Positions 15,628 through 63,970 of a stretch of DNA of 64,000 nt are shown here, one piece after another. The stretch is taken from positions 1 through 64,000 of the forward strand of contig CAMXPV010000020.1 of assembly GCA_947245585.1 (NCBI GenBank). The letters are read 5' to 3'. Source of the stretch: an uncultured Lachnospiraceae bacterium. GTDB taxonomy: Bacteria; Bacillota; Clostridia; Lachnospirales; Lachnospiraceae. The translations under genes and the position numbers were made by a program. The notes below the pieces were generated by a model, which was not told the DNA's origin, did no database searches, and saw only the letters and a list, made by a program, of their open reading frames with translations. Every line of letters starts with the position of its first letter. Within the stretch, counting starts at the first letter, position 1.

Positions 15628-15634
15628 ATCCGAG

Positions 15635-15981
15635 TGGACCAGACGGGAATCGAACCCGTGTCCAAAAGCCCATTCCCTGTCCTTCTACTATCATAGTCTC
15701 TCATTTCGGATTGCTCCTCATTCCCTCCTCCATGTGGAGAAAGACACCCTCATGGATTCAGTAGCCTCTGATACGCCCGCGGGTAAGAGGCGTCCCCCGC
15801 GTCGTTTCCTACATAGTCGATGCCCGGTTCTTAATGTGTAGGTGCACTAAGGCGGACAGCTGCCTTTAGGCAGCGTATGCTAAATTATCTTCAGCGTTTG
15901 TGTTTAAGTTTGCGATTTGACGCATCAGCCTGCGGATAGCTTCTCCAGCTGCAAGACCCCTGTCGAAACCTTGACTGGCCC
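15635..15981 (-). ncRNA. ssrA: tmRNA
   Basis: Transfer-messenger RNA of about 347 nt that rescues stalled ribosomes together with SmpB, encoded just upstream. The 3' end reads as a tRNA-like T arm (GGGTTCGATTCCC) and ends in an encoded CCA. The 5' GGGCCAG pairs with the 3' CUGGUCC to form the acceptor stem. The tag reading frame runs from 15913 to 15866 and encodes ANLNTNAEDNLAYAA plus stop, with the usual LAYAA-type C-terminal degron. A TATAAT box lies 7 bases upstream of the 5' end. Confidence 0.96.
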
Positions 15982-44126: not shown

Positions 44127-45830
44127 TCAATAACAATCGCGCAGATCATAAAATTCCACAGAGGGCTCCCTTCCGAACTCAGTAACAATGCCGTAAAACG
44201 TTACGCTAAAGCCGCTGCCGTCCTCATTGACGGTCAGTTTCGCGCCCCGGTCCTGCAGAAAATACCAGGCGTTCCCCACGGTTATCATGCGGGTGTATTT
44301 CGGAAAACTGAACTTTTCGCCGGAATAATAGCCGTCCAGACAGTCGTAGGTCGGGATAAAAAGCTTACAAAGCAGTTCGCCCGTGTCCGGGTCATGCACC
44401 TCATGCCAGTCCCCGTCCTCATTCTCCCACTCCCCGCTGCGCTTTTCGTATGCCGCTCCCCACTCCCGGTACTGCTCCGGGGTGATATTCCAGGCTTCAA
44501 ACAGAAACATGTAGCACCGGTACGCGTCCTGCAGTCCTTCGGAAAGCTCCTTTGCCTCCACGCTCCGCAGATCATATGCCTGCCTTTCGGCAAAGGAAAA
44601 ATCCGGCACGCCGCCATATAAAAGGACTTGCGGAAACAGCACGGACTCTGTGCAGACAGCCACCTCCGATATACGCTGCAGCTCCTCCTGCTCCCGGAAC
44701 ATCTTTACCGCGCTCTCGCAAAACGAGTCTATCTCTCCGATATCCGAATAGAGCAGTGTGGCATATTCTATGGTTTCCGGATCTGCGTAAGTGCCGCCCG
44801 TATAACTCACCAGACAGCCCTCCAGACCGTACTGCGCGGCGTAATACTCAAAAAGCAGCTGTTCGTAATCCTCCTGCACCAGATATACCCGCTTTCCCTC
44901 CACATATCCGATTTCCACCTTCGCGGTGACAGGCCACTCCGGATGCGCAGCGGAATACAGATGATAAACAATATAGCCGTTTTTATCTTTCTCCAACCGC
45001 TCCGGCTCGGAAAAGGTCGTTTCCGGATAGCGCTCTGCCATATAGTCGATCAGGAAAAGACGTCCGTTCTCCCGCTGTCTGTGGATTGTCACGGGAATCA
45101 TAATACAGACGACCAGAAAAGCCACCGCCACAGCACAAATAGAAATACGAAGGATTTTATCATTCTTTGCCCATCGCTGTTCGTACTGTATATTCCTCTG
45201 CTGTTTCTCATAGGCCGGATACAGACTTCTGTAGAGCCGCTGCAGGTCTCCCTGATATGCAATCCCCTCGCTTTCCTGAAAACCGTAAGCCTCCCAGAAG
45301 AGCATTTTCACCTCGTCAATGCCGTAAAAACATTTATTGTCAATCTCGTCTGCAAGGGTCTTCAGTACCTGCGGATGGTAACGGATATCCTGAAACTCCT
45401 CAGAAGCCAGATATGCCTTCCACCACTCCATGATCTCCTGATCGTGGTAAGGACCATGAAACTCCTTCCAACGATCCAAAAACACGTCTGCCTGCTGCCC
45501 GTGTTTCTCCGTGCTCTCCTCAAAATAAGCCCGCAGTTCTTCCCTCTCGGGCTCCTCTGTGGTTTCCTCTTCCGTTTCGCCCACGCTCCTTCCGGCATCC
45601 TCCGGCACGCTTTCCGCCGTTTTGTAAAACCATGTTATGCTGCTGCCGGACTGCTCAACCTGTCTGGCATAGTCCGCATATCCAAGCGCCGCCTGATAGG
45701 CCTCGTGCAGCTGCCTGAACTCCTCCGGTGCATCCTCCGGGTGAATCTCTCTTGTCTTCGCCGCGTAGGCTCTCCTGATGGTTTTTTTGTCTGTGGTCGG
45801 CTCTATGCCGAGTATCTTCCAAATATTCAT
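44127..45830 (-). CDS. Membrane-anchored J-domain protein
   Basis: A 567-residue protein. Residues 1-55 form a short J-domain (MNIWKILGIEPTTDKKTIRR ... FRQLHEAYQ) in which the HPD tripeptide reads HPED (30-33). A conserved cytoplasmic segment follows (about 110-205, EWWKAYLASEEFQDIRYHPQ), then one transmembrane helix (about 227-247) and an extracytoplasmic domain of about 320 residues of unknown fold. ATG 45830 is preferred because GGGG precedes it and it begins at the J-domain. The next gene upstream is a shortened paralogue, and beyond that lies an Hsp70, so this is probably its dedicated co-chaperone. Confidence 0.8.
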   Translation of the reverse strand: MNIWKILGIEPTTDKKTIRRAYAAKTREIHPEDAPEEFRQLHEAYQAALGYADYARQVEQSGSSITWFYKTAESVPEDAGRSVGETEEETTEEPEREELRAYFEESTEKHGQQADVFLDRWKEFHGPYHDQEIMEWWKAYLASEEFQDIRYHPQVLKTLADEIDNKCFYGIDEVKMLFWEAYGFQESEGIAYQGDLQRLYRSLYPAYEKQQRNIQYEQRWAKNDKILRISICAVAVAFLVVCIMIPVTIHRQRENGRLFLIDYMAERYPETTFSEPERLEKDKNGYIVYHLYSAAHPEWPVTAKVEIGYVEGKRVYLVQEDYEQLLFEYYAAQYGLEGCLVSYTGGTYADPETIEYATLLYSDIGEIDSFCESAVKMFREQEELQRISEVAVCTESVLFPQVLLYGGVPDFSFAERQAYDLRSVEAKELSEGLQDAYRCYMFLFEAWNITPEQYREWGAAYEKRSGEWENEDGDWHEVHDPDTGELLCKLFIPTYDCLDGYYSGEKFSFPKYTRMITVGNAWYFLQDRGAKLTVNEDGSGFSVTFYGIVTEFGREPSVEFYDLRDCY

Positions 45831-45857
45831 GTTAATCCCCATATTTCAGTATCATTT

Positions 45858-46367
45858 TTATACGTTGTCCTCCACCAGATTTCTGGCATAGTATAACAGC
45901 GCAATCACGACCGGAACAAGCGCCCTCCCGTCATGAATCATATAAGCGCCCCAAATACAGAAAAGCAGGATCAGAACAATCGCCGCGATCCTGACCAGAC
46001 GCTTTGTCTTTTTTTTCATCCGCCGCCTGATCCGTTTCGGATGCAGATATCTCCGCAATTTGCACACTTCGTCCTGATACGCGCCCTGATATGCGGTCTT
46101 ATCGTCTTCCCAAAAACCATAGGCCTCCCAGAGGAGACGCTTGATCTCATCCGTCATATAATCTTTATGAAAAAAATCATGCCGAAGGAATCTCCATGCC
46201 CTCTCGCCCGCAAGCACATGCACCACCTGCGGGTGAAAGCGGATATTCTGAAATTCCTCCGAGAACAGATACCCCCTCCACCAGTCGAGCGTCCCCGGTC
46301 TTTCATGGGAATTCCTGTAGGCGTTCCAGTATCGGATAAAGGCGTCCACGCGCCTGTCTGTTTCCAT
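45858..46367 (-). CDS. Shortened membrane paralogue of the J-domain protein
   Basis: 169 residues. It lacks the J-domain and the large outer domain, but its core (DWWRGYLFSEEFQNIRFHPQ ... LLWEAYGFWEDDKTAYQG) aligns with about residues 115-200 of the downstream protein. Two closely spaced helices follow a basic cluster (RIRRRMKKKTKR). GGAGG lies before ATG 46367. Likely a duplicate reduced to the membrane-anchored adaptor region. Confidence 0.7.
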   Translation of the reverse strand: METDRRVDAFIRYWNAYRNSHERPGTLDWWRGYLFSEEFQNIRFHPQVVHVLAGERAWRFLRHDFFHKDYMTDEIKRLLWEAYGFWEDDKTAYQGAYQDEVCKLRRYLHPKRIRRRMKKKTKRLVRIAAIVLILLFCIWGAYMIHDGRALVPVVIALLYYARNLVEDNV

Positions 46368-46395
46368 CTTATAACCTCCATGATTGCGCTGTTCG

Positions 46396-46488
46396 GAGAA
46401 TGCCGCTTTTCAGGCATTCTCTTGGGTGAAACTTAGAAGTTCTCCGCAAAACAGTCTTTACTGTGAGCGGCTAGAACTTCTTTTCACC
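46396..46488 (-). repeat. 93-nt structured element, copy A
   Basis: Starts directly after the TAA of the Hsp70 gene. Nested stems on the plus strand: GGTGAAA/TTTCACC (46425-46431 with 46482-46488), AGAAGTTCT/AGAACTTCT (46435-46443 with 46473-46481), CCGC/GCGG, ACAGT/ACTGT with loop CTTT. A separate hairpin GAGAATGCC/GGCATTCTC is at 46396-46421. Copy B at 62930-63022 has the same length and fold with paired base changes. Confidence 0.85.
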
Positions 46489-48168
46489 TTATTCGAGCCG
46501 GTCAAATATCTCCTCCGCCACCTTCAGGCACTCGGCAATCTGTCTGTCATCCCCGCCTGCAACCGCCTCCTGAATCTTCTTCATCACAGCCGCAACCTCC
46601 ATACGCCTTGAGCCGAGCGTCTGGGCATACAGCCTCTCCCCTCTCTCCATCACCATTTTCAGCCTGATCCCGCCGCGGGGCATCAGCTTATATTTTCGCA
46701 GTTCCTCCAACCTTCGTTCCAACTCCTCCTCGGACAGACGCAGATTTTCACTGACTAACACCTTTCTTTTTGTCTGCTCCGCCCCCGGATTCGTAAAGTC
46801 CGTAACCTCCACCTCCAAAATGCCGTTGATATCGTATGTAAAACAGATTTTCAGGTGGTTCTCTCCTCTTTTTCGCGGCTGAATATCCATCCGGATGCTG
46901 CCTAGCTTCAAATTATCTTTGCAGTAGTAGGCTTCTCCCTGATAGATGCCGATGTCGATACGGGATTGATTGTCATGAGAATTGCTGTAGTATCCGGTTC
47001 TGGAACAGGGCAGCACGCTGTTTCTCTCGATCACGGCGGACATAATCGGATTTTCCTCATCCACATAATTTACCACATCAGTACCCAGCGTAAAGGGACA
47101 GATATCCGTCAGAACCAGATCTTTAATATCCTCCCTGCGCTCCTTGATGCCGGCATAAATGCCGACTCCCATGGCAACCACCTCGTCCGGCGAAGCGACC
47201 ATGCTCGGCCTGCGCTTCAGCTGCGTCTGCAGATAGAGGGAGATCACCGGCATTTTGGAAGAGCCGCCCACAAGAACGATCTCGTCAATCTCATCAAGTG
47301 ACCGGGCGCTATCGCGGAGCGCTGTGTGAACCGCTTGACTAATCCGGTCAAACAGGCTCTGTCCCAGTCCCGCCAACAAAAGATTATTCAAAGGCATCCT
47401 CTTATCCTCTGTCTCCCATACCAACTCTGTCTCGTCCTGCTCTGTCAGCTCCCTTTTACATTTCTCGGAAAGCCGCAGAAGCGCCGCTTTCTTCTGCGGC
47501 TCCAAACCGTCGTAATCCATCTGGTGATGGGTGCAGAAACTGCGTGCGATCACCTCGTCAAAATCATCGCCGCCAAGCCGGTTATCGCCGCTGACGGCAA
47601 CGATCTCAATCACGTTTTCAAAATAGTCTACCACCGACACATCCAATGTCCCGCCGCCAAAGTCAAAGACCAGATAGGAACCTTCCTCCTCCCCGCTGAT
47701 CCGGCTGGCTGTCAGAGCTGCGGCGGAAGGCTCGTTGACAAGACGCTCCACATGGATGCCCGCCAGTTCCCCCGCCTCCTTGGTGGCATATCTCTGGTTG
47801 TCGTTGAAGTAAGCCGGAACACTGATCACCGCCTCCGTCACCTCTTCCCCCAGAAACCGCTCCGCATCCTCCTTTAACTGGCGCAGGACAAAAGAGGATA
47901 GTTCCTGCGGCGTAAAGGAATTTCCCGCCAGTGTAAATGTTTTGTCCGTCCCCATAAATCGTTTGAAAGAGGAGGCTGATGCCTCCGGATGGGAAACCAA
48001 CCGCTCTTTCGCCACTGCGCCCACGCAGATTTCCCCGTTTTCATCCACGCTGACTACGCTTGGTGTCAATGTTTCCCCCAAAGAGTTGGGAATCAAAACT
48101 GCCCTGCCTTCCTGGCAGATGCAGGCAAGACTGTTGGTCGTACCCAGATCAATTCCGATAATCACCAT
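46489..48168 (-). CDS. Hsp70-family chaperone (HscC/DnaK-like)
   Basis: A 559-residue Hsp70. The nucleotide-binding domain (1 to about 365) shows GIDLGTTNSLACI, VISVPAYFNDNQRYATKEAG, VFDFGGGTLDVSV and IVLVGGSSKMP. The linker and substrate-binding beta domain follow (DICPFTLGTDVV, then RKRGENHLKICFTYDINGIL). At 559 residues it is shorter than DnaK (about 610-640) and has a reduced helical lid, as in HscC-type proteins. It is first in an operon with two membrane proteins, one carrying a J-domain. No grpE is nearby. Confidence 0.93.
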   Translation of the reverse strand: MVIIGIDLGTTNSLACICQEGRAVLIPNSLGETLTPSVVSVDENGEICVGAVAKERLVSHPEASASSFKRFMGTDKTFTLAGNSFTPQELSSFVLRQLKEDAERFLGEEVTEAVISVPAYFNDNQRYATKEAGELAGIHVERLVNEPSAAALTASRISGEEEGSYLVFDFGGGTLDVSVVDYFENVIEIVAVSGDNRLGGDDFDEVIARSFCTHHQMDYDGLEPQKKAALLRLSEKCKRELTEQDETELVWETEDKRMPLNNLLLAGLGQSLFDRISQAVHTALRDSARSLDEIDEIVLVGGSSKMPVISLYLQTQLKRRPSMVASPDEVVAMGVGIYAGIKERREDIKDLVLTDICPFTLGTDVVNYVDEENPIMSAVIERNSVLPCSRTGYYSNSHDNQSRIDIGIYQGEAYYCKDNLKLGSIRMDIQPRKRGENHLKICFTYDINGILEVEVTDFTNPGAEQTKRKVLVSENLRLSEEELERRLEELRKYKLMPRGGIRLKMVMERGERLYAQTLGSRRMEVAAVMKKIQEAVAGGDDRQIAECLKVAEEIFDRLE

Positions 48169-62850: not shown

Positions 62851-62929
62851 TAAAAAAAGCATAAAGAAAAGCACGGGGTGTCGGTTTCCGACAGTCCCAT
62901 GCCTTGTAAACATATCTCATATTCGCGCA

Positions 62930-63022
62930 GAGAATGCCGTTTTGCAGGCATTCTCTTGAGTGAAACATATAATTTCTTAGCGAAGCAGCCCCTGCTGCTG
63001 AGCTTTAGAAATTCTTTTCACT
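62930..63022 (-). repeat. 93-nt structured element, copy B
   Basis: Starts directly after the TAG of xerD. Nested stems on the plus strand: AGTGAAA/TTTCACT (62959-62965 with 63016-63022), an ATAATTTCT/AGAAATTCT-type stem, AGC/GCT and AGCAGC/GCTGCT-type pairing, and a separate hairpin GAGAATGCC/GGCATTCTC at 62930-62955. Same order and length as copy A, with compensatory differences. Confidence 0.85.
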
Positions 63023-63970
63023 CTAGCCCCGGGGATGTGCTTTCGCGTATACCTCCCTGATATGATTGTGATTCAGGTTTGCATAGATCTGCGTCGTGGA
63101 AATATCGGAATGTCCCAACATCTCCTGCACGCTTCTTAAGTCCGCCCCGTTCTCCACCAGATGCGCCGCAAAAGAATGCCGCAGCGTATGGGGCGTGATA
63201 TCCGCCTGAATATCCGCCTTCTTGGCATAGTGCTTGATCAATTTCCAAAAGCCCTGCCTGCTCATAGGCTGTCCGGAACAATTTGCAAAAAGCACATCCG
63301 ATTTCTTATTTTCAAGCATCTCCTCCCTGGTTCCGTTTAAATACCGTTCCATCGCCGCCTTAGCCGCAGCGCCGAAAGGAATGATTCTCTCCTTATTGCG
63401 GTCGCGGCAGAGGATAAAATTCATCTGCATATTGACATCGGAAAGGGATAAGGTAATCAGCTCCGTCACACGGATTCCCGTCGCATAGAGAAGTTCCAAC
63501 ATGGCTTTATCCCGAATTTCCTTGGGACTGTCCCCGGAAGGCTGGTCCAGAAGACGTACCACCTCGTCGGGCGTCATGATTTCCGGTGCCTTCTTTTCGA
63601 TCTTGGGAGCCTTGAGCTTGTCGGAAATATCCTCCTCCACCAAACCTTCCTGCACCATATAGTGATAGAACGCTTTCAGGGATGCGATGTTACGGGACAC
63701 GGTGGCTGCCGCAAACTTACTGTCCTCCAGATATTTCACATAATCAATCAGATCCTGCGCTGTCATATCCCTGACCTCTTGAATCCCCCGCGAAGCCATG
63801 AAATGCAGTACCTTCTCTAAATCTCTCTTGTAAGACATCTCCGTATTGCCGGAGGTATTCTTCACATTATGTAAATACGTGATAAATGCACTTATCTCTT
63901 TTTCCATTTGCCAGAAAGCCTTTCCCCGTGCGTTCTCTTTATGTAAATCAAACCACTGTCTGAGTTCCAT
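63023..63970 (-). CDS. xerD: Tyrosine recombinase XerD
   Basis: A site-specific recombinase of the XerC/XerD family that resolves chromosome dimers at dif. It has 315 residues. The N-terminal SAM-like core-binding domain (about 20-110) is followed by the catalytic domain with the Arg in ATGIRVTELI, the HTLRHSFAAHL box, the LGHSDISTTQIY box and the nucleophile Tyr in that last box. The frame is complete within the window. ATG 63970 lacks a clear Shine-Dalgarno sequence; the Met at about residue 22 (MEKEIS) is an alternative. No mobile-element genes adjoin, so a housekeeping role is likely. Confidence 0.92.
   Translation of the reverse strand: MELRQWFDLHKENARGKAFWQMEKEISAFITYLHNVKNTSGNTEMSYKRDLEKVLHFMASRGIQEVRDMTAQDLIDYVKYLEDSKFAAATVSRNIASLKAFYHYMVQEGLVEEDISDKLKAPKIEKKAPEIMTPDEVVRLLDQPSGDSPKEIRDKAMLELLYATGIRVTELITLSLSDVNMQMNFILCRDRNKERIIPFGAAAKAAMERYLNGTREEMLENKKSDVLFANCSGQPMSRQGFWKLIKHYAKKADIQADITPHTLRHSFAAHLVENGADLRSVQEMLGHSDISTTQIYANLNHNHIREVYAKAHPRG

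Follow-up and report, generated by a model that had tools for sequence, protein, structure and literature searches.

The CerM-associated intergenic repeat (CIR) of Caulobacter is, according to the part of its description drawn on here, a small intergenic element that lacks a terminal inverted repeat and instead has independent 5' and 3' stem-loops and TA termini (PMC2229807). The same part of that source describes ERIC/IRU (127 bp) and the NEMIS/Correia elements as MITEs with TA termini that are co-transcribed as long hairpins, and mentions a reported, orientation-dependent effect of ERIC on the upstream mRNA. REP and BIME elements are extragenic palindromes, some of which lie within 15 nt of stop codons, as stated in the section consulted of PMC12306157. 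REPs are 20-40 bp long and carry a GTAG or CGTC tag, and the CGTC type likewise occurs without a dedicated transposase, as given in the portion of PMC3733652 used here.

We consider it likely that two elements in a 64,000-nt stretch of an uncultured Lachnospiraceae genome (contig CAMXPV010000020.1, positions 1 to 64,000; hereafter the window) are copies of a non-autonomous, interspersed mobile hairpin repeat of MITE/REP-like character in Lachnospiraceae. The repeat is dispersed and its paired positions covary; orthologous sites hold it, hold a decayed form of it, or lack it, and most copies are co-oriented with the upstream gene and abut its stop codon, with a tendency to be preceded by TA. 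An earlier note on this DNA had treated the element as a two-copy feature; it actually belongs to an apparently mobile family found at stop codons, and its presence or absence at a given site differs between species. We found no published description of the repeat in the literature searched at the level of titles and abstracts, which is not proof that there is none.

Structure of the Two Window Copies

The copies at 46396-46488 and 62930-63022 are, as the earlier note had reported, of equal length, at 93 nt each; they align without gaps and are identical at 69 of 93 positions, with 24 differences. When folded with 10 nt of flanking sequence, both strands of each copy far outperform shuffled sequences (z -5.5 to -6.6, 0/200). 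Among the 35 pairs of the copy 1 fold, 25 are unchanged in copy 2, four are changed on both sides and still paired (46425-46488, 46439-46477, 46451-46464, and 46455-46460), one is changed on a single side and still paired, and five are lost. Four of the lost pairs make up a helix of 4 bp (46444-46447/46467-46470) that is in a different register in copy 2, and the other sits in the 9-bp stem. Differences between the copies therefore fall in pairs in most cases but not in all.

The direction of the neighboring genes, adopted below, is the reverse complement of the strand first described. Read this way, copy 1 begins at 46489 and ends at 46394. Its 96-nt core (46394..46489, minus strand) matches the covariance model R1 with 106.5 bits and the core of copy 2 (62928..63023, minus strand, starting at 63023) with 97.1 bits, and both belong to the five-copy seed of that model. 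In the minimum free energy fold, copy 1 forms a long bulged hairpin (46424..46489, minus strand) with pairs backed by covariation, composed of an outer stem (46424-46431/46482-46489) and further stems (46435-46447/46467-46481 and 46451-46455/46460-46464). Sequence and fold together define a short hairpin, GAGAATGCC/GGCATTCTC, at 46396..46421 on the same strand. This hairpin, previously called terminal, stands beside the nested hairpin as a separate structure rather than at its tip. Comparison by eye with full tails identifies the minus-strand segment 46368..46393 as the tail of copy 1, a likely remnant of a third hairpin together with a Shine-Dalgarno-like ATGGAGGTTA. Copy 2 has a long bulged hairpin at 62958..63023 and a short hairpin at 62930..62955, both from sequence and fold, and a tail remnant at 62916..62927 (CGCGAATATGAG in gene direction; all minus strand), which was recognized by eye and is missing from the sibling genome.

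Copy 1 lies downstream of a DnaK-like (Hsp70) gene (46489..48168, minus strand), whose sequence clusters with what we take to be DnaK, and the last base of its TAA stop codon (46491-46489) is the first base of the repeat. The start codon of the next gene, which encodes 169 amino acids (45858..46367, minus strand), is at 46367, directly after the copy 1 tail. Copy 2 follows a gene for a tyrosine recombinase, presumably XerD-like (63023..63970, minus strand), whose TAG stop codon consists of TA and the first base, G, of the repeat. The region 44127-48168 is operon-like: after the DnaK-like protein come two smaller ones, the latter of which begins by eye like a J-domain protein, and the repeat fills the first gap.

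Anatomy of the Repeat Unit

The full unit of about 136 nt reads TA, G-N-GTGARAAG, then two hairpins, one long and bulged and one short, to which a third may be added, and finally a Shine-Dalgarno-like GGNGGTTA tail. In the long hairpin, an outer stem of about 8 bp is followed by a bulge of 3 nt, which in some copies accommodates an additional hairpin; next come a 9-bp stem in which AGAA/TTCT is conserved, the inner stems, and a small loop. The short hairpin is centered around GGAGAATGCC and is often followed by CAYNGATTTG, a third hairpin of fixed geometry, and CATGGNGGTTA. A third hairpin of at least 6 bp is found in 40/130 copies, a few of them by chance, compared with 14/130 in the next 48 nt. 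The two ends of a copy sit in different hairpins, and terminal inverted repeats that would pair both ends are absent.

Some loci depart from this plan. Tandem cores spaced by 40-41 nt, a gap formed by the third hairpin module, occur at eight loci (L063, L085, L086, L101, L105, L122, L129, and L132); L086 has three cores with a second gap of 109 nt, and wider gaps of 103 and 109 nt were seen. In L011 (L003), L016, L042, L047, and L018, the long hairpin contains further hairpins, which differ in sequence, at its 3-nt bulge or in an inner stem. In a genome of another genus (L264 in G199), a tRNA-Pro gene on the opposite strand stands where the short hairpin would be, with its 3' end directly adjacent to the long hairpin.

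A reading frame that starts at GTG inside the element is open for at least 20 codons in 74 of 124 copies, a count that leaves out the 29 of 153 copies lacking the start pattern, and it often ends in ...TQENA. We rejected an encoded peptide: the 25-codon frame is often open, yet it is unconserved in divergent copies. Hairpins placed straight after stop codons would suit a family of intrinsic terminators or an integron attC-like recombination site behind genes, but we give this explanation almost no credence. As regards its first half, a scan placed no terminator-like site on either of the copies, the one detected lying outside copy 1 at 46340-46355 on the plus strand, and the consensus has no T-run after its hairpins; intrinsic termination was rejected on these two grounds.

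Distribution of the Repeat

When the window's genome was searched by pattern with up to three mismatches allowed, six copies emerged, of which one lacks the long hairpin, and R1 was built from the five full copies. With R1, the same genome yields 24 matches at E<=1 and 19 at E<=0.01, or 17 at E<=0.01 under stricter filters. At E<=0.01 the model matches 33 of 61 genomes, which are 33 of the 37 from the window's genus, and 0 of the 24 from other families of the same order. Five element-rich relatives carry 110, 104, 42, 34, and 35 matches. In a wider set of 299 Lachnospiraceae genomes, with nearly every genus represented once, matches at E<=1e-4 occur in 16, from 15 of 298 genera, 14 of them other than the window's own; in other genera the anatomy of the element is the same. 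The covariance-model search of related Lachnospiraceae that the earlier note had proposed thus returned hundreds of further copies with their stems kept, and neither a lack of other copies nor differences that break the stems at random was encountered.

An exact pattern scan of named genomes matched at least 119 stretches. Among the matches listed are Lachnospiraceae MAGs and isolates, including Lachnospiraceae bacterium 28-4, Parablautia muri, and an Acetatifactor sp., an assignment that rests on record titles, the others being titled only "bacterium", "uncultured bacterium", or "Clostridia bacterium". The exact pattern has 0 matches in viral contigs, and nothing in phage and plasmid records matches copy 1. 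The accompanying suggestion of an Rfam search led to no family that fits the element or exceeds its gathering threshold there: the scan of the window reports only a tmRNA gene (15632-15981, minus strand), with no match over the element, and at the six loci of the window's genome three weak matches at E<=10 all lie off the element.

Covariation of Paired Positions

Covariation cannot be proved from two copies alone; the sets of 91 and 72 distinct copies prove it. With 91 of them aligned, both sides change in 24 of 35 pairs and 95.8% of cells are paired, a result equaled by 0/500 shuffles, and pairing falls to 36-59% when the partner is slid by one to three columns. Among 72 matches, a set that takes in other genera and two weak second matches, both sides change in 34 of 35 pairs, 96.8% of cells are paired, again equaled by 0/500 shuffles, and the covariation score is 0.529 versus 0.163 for shuffled data. 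Both alignments were fitted to the model and are hence biased toward the structure.

Compensatory change goes far beyond the controls, which supports in part the proposal of selection on a fold; other readings, such as a constraint at the level of DNA, fit it too, and strong covariation need not imply a functional RNA. An RNA reading would make the element a functional, cis-acting RNA at gene ends that is under selection at the mRNA level, either protecting 3' ends or coupling termination to initiation, with mobility as a secondary trait. We regard this as rather unlikely. Such an RNA should tolerate G-U pairs on the mRNA strand, which would appear as A-C on the strand first described, and no such excess is seen. 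Wobble pairs are rare on either strand in the two main stems, with 6 G-T and 8 A-C in 1202 cells. Over all helices except the 3-bp one, G-T and A-C pairs number 55 and 42 (A5, p 0.22) or 36 and 16 (A6, p 0.008), the latter an outcome that the model favors, having been built on that strand. A comparison with 15 tRNAs, 11 of which had usable acceptor stems and which are too few to weigh, gave 3 G-T and 0 A-C in 77 cells. The rarity of wobbles on both strands therefore lends no support to selection on the mRNA strand, the strand test being a weak one, and is at least as compatible with a constraint on DNA, or with correction templated by the palindrome, as with selection on RNA.

Such correction could by itself maintain a palindrome that has no function, if strand switching templated by the hairpin during replication repaired one arm from the other. 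The double changes with few intermediates, 14 G-T or A-C cells in all in the two main stems, are what this process would leave behind, and so are internal deletions that retain both ends, which two loci described below display. Conservation of AGAA/TTCT, the 3-nt bulge, and the orientation and placement of copies are, however, left unexplained, and we think it improbable that palindrome maintenance accounts for the element.

Placement at Stop Codons

Placement was analyzed for 131 copies, that is, 139 minus eight with short or duplicate flanks; the counts retain orthologous pairs, come from source lists biased by pattern and best match, and take open frames of at least 70 codons as genes, so some calls are wrong. 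Eighty-seven copies lie between two co-oriented genes, 12 precede a convergent gene, another 12 are flanked by divergent genes, 4 are opposed to both neighbors, and 16 could not be assigned. Among the 104 copies behind co-oriented genes, the offset of the stop codon's end is +1 in 32, -2 in 19, +6 in 14, and +19 in 7. After six rows with a frame across the element were set aside, 98 copies remained, of which 52 are within 2 nt of the stop codon, 4 lie 3-30 nt beyond it, and 18 are farther away, with the gene ending inside the element in the other 24. This is so although the 60 nt past the stop codon contain on average 3.5 TA.

TA precedes 78/131 copies, including 35/59 of those outside the offsets 1, -2, 6, and 19; CA precedes 15/131. 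TA also follows 23 of 40 tails, which were picked by a loose pattern. In the 32 copies at offset +1, the stop codon is TAG in 29 and TAA in 3 and is finished by the first base of the element. Offsets -2 and +1 share a reading frame, and the junction that we take to be grpE-dnaK reads TAA CAG in the window's genome and TAG in a relative (G016), so one arrangement can become the other. Two sites (L008 and L013) have no gene ahead, and the element there follows a -10-like TATACTA or TATATTA, which would by its sequence be a promoter.

In 29 of 153 copies, an open frame of at least 60 codons has an SD-like motif 4-15 nt ahead of it, several of these motifs being ordinary Shine-Dalgarno sites past the tail. 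In several copies, including copy 1 of the window, the tail itself gives the next gene a plausible Shine-Dalgarno site. These motifs, the fixed orientation relative to the upstream gene, and the abutment on its stop codon are in keeping with the cis-acting RNA introduced above.

At the stop codon of one of the sites (L012), an insertion of another kind, rich in hairpins and about 150-200 nt long, is present in two relatives (L218 in G003 and L289 in G025). It starts near AGCCCGCGCCAT and is perhaps another repeat family of like habit.

Orthologous Sites

The gene names used for the compared sites (grpE, dnaK, XerD, rpsD, and rpoA) are ones that we presume from sequence. At the XerD site, R1 matches 1 of 30 orthologous loci, namely that of the window itself. 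In the sibling G033, whose XerD is 97% identical, the gene ends in a clean TAA followed by the same downstream sequence, and in G025 a single short-type hairpin lies farther downstream. For ten other sites of the window's genome we compared 45 loci in five relatives, consisting of 30 best-match loci and 15 further ones that were added to offset the bias of best matches toward empty sites. R1 gave 12 full matches, one of them with matches on both strands behind an opposite gene, and 1 partial match; by eye, the remainder comprise 9 more remnants, 2 ambiguous loci, 18 with none, and 3 that are not comparable. The 42 comparable loci are thus divided into 12 with the element, 10 with remnants, 18 with none, and 2 ambiguous. 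Remnants take the form of internal deletions with both ends retained (L225 and L234) or of short TAGNGTGAGAA-like 5' pieces. Several "empty" sites also bear TAGNGTGAGAA-like sequence, which may be left over from a copy or may have been there beforehand as a target.

At the L008 site the element is present in all six genomes compared, and some copies are therefore old and inherited. Conservation of sites across species with altered stems, here and at the rpsD-rpoA junction in two (L019 and L058), is again what a cis-acting RNA would predict; the many orthologous sites without the element argue against it. The grpE-dnaK element occurs in the window's genome, in G016, and on one of two contigs of G025, and is missing from G033, the other G025 contig, G003, and G034. 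The empty G033 site passes from the stop codon into AAAATAAATTTAGGTAGAAATAGGAGG, the sequence found after the element in G016. G033 is the closer sibling (XerD identity to the window's genome of 97% versus 95%), and the absence of the element there suggests a precise loss. In a further species (L136), the element is again at the grpE-dnaK junction and, judged by eye, the last Glu codon and the stop codon are read from it.

Three copies on three contigs of one MAG are identical at 96/96 core bases; their gene-side flanks are at background similarity (0.42-0.50), and their tail side is common to them (0.80-0.85). A pair with 98% identity was dropped as a case of unrelated flanks, with merely 12 nt comparable on one side. 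The empty sites of siblings allowed neither a target-site duplication nor the exact 3' end to be fixed. Going by sequence comparison, the repeat probably reached stop codons by moving around the genome.

Possible Mode of Movement

With 96-136 nt, up to 110 copies, and no transposase gene of its own, the element resembles a MITE of the ERIC/NEMIS/RUP type. A repeat derived from REP/RAYT or IS200/IS605 systems would depend for its movement on a Y1 (HUH) transposase that works on hairpins in single-stranded form. The REP-like character of extragenic hairpin repeats beside stop codons, sometimes in arrays, agrees with such an origin, as does the occurrence of Y1 genes in 15 of 41 genomes of the genus, including 4 of the 10 with at least 20 copies (G003, G015, G023, and G025). 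We nonetheless judge it very unlikely. The Y1 transposase (PF01797) has no match in the window's genome or in the other six of these ten relatives (G002, G006, G016, G027, G032, and G034), although the assemblies of G016 and G027 are merely 82% complete, and R1 has 0 matches at the 20 Y1 loci fetched from 40 Y1 rows. Clustering of 696 ORFs from element loci suggests no master gene beside the copies; the recurrent clusters look like what we assume to be ordinary ABC-transporter, response-regulator, DnaK, and sugar-transport genes.

For a mobile repeat we infer instead an enzyme acting in trans, probably not a Y1 (RAYT/IS200) transposase, that would recognize the folded DNA and insert the element at TA, the TA of stop codons being a privileged site. 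Neither neighboring gene would be broken, because the first G of the element rebuilds TAG and the tail can supply a ribosome-binding site. Once inserted, the element would be transcribed as a hairpin in the 3'-UTR or between cistrons and, by analogy with ERIC and REP, may tune mRNA decay or translational coupling. The enrichment at stop codons may reflect selection rather than targeting. We put forward only tentatively, and with more doubt than belief, the complete scenario of a DNA hairpin that prefers the TA of TAA or TAG in gene direction, rebuilds TAG, brings a Shine-Dalgarno tail between essential genes without harm, and is moved by an enzyme other than Y1/RAYT.

With up to 110 copies per genome, often located at stop codons and in some cases within housekeeping operons, this family of structured repeats could influence numerous operons in bacteria of the gut. 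The repeat also offers a testable case of a small mobile element that enters tightly packed operons without loss.

Comparison with Known Repeats

The repeat is like CIR in size, copy number, a TA at the 5' terminus, separate stem-loops, and the lack of a terminal inverted repeat, as far as the cited part of PMC2229807 describes them. In contrast, CIR is found in another phylum and carries a GANTC methylation motif, and placement at stop codons is unmentioned in that part of the source. ERIC, NEMIS, and RUP also resemble the repeat in size, copy number, and a TA at the 5' terminus; however, ERIC/IRU and NEMIS/Correia have terminal inverted repeats, whereas the Lachnospiraceae repeat consists of two to three separate hairpins with unpaired ends. 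REP/BIME elements with RAYT share with it the character of extragenic palindromes and proximity to stop codons, but a REP is a palindrome of 20-40 bp, and the repeat, at 96-136 nt with a two-hairpin core, falls outside this size range. Its unpaired ends, its unit of two or three hairpins, and its missing association with Y1 set the repeat apart from CIR, ERIC, NEMIS, RUP, and REP.
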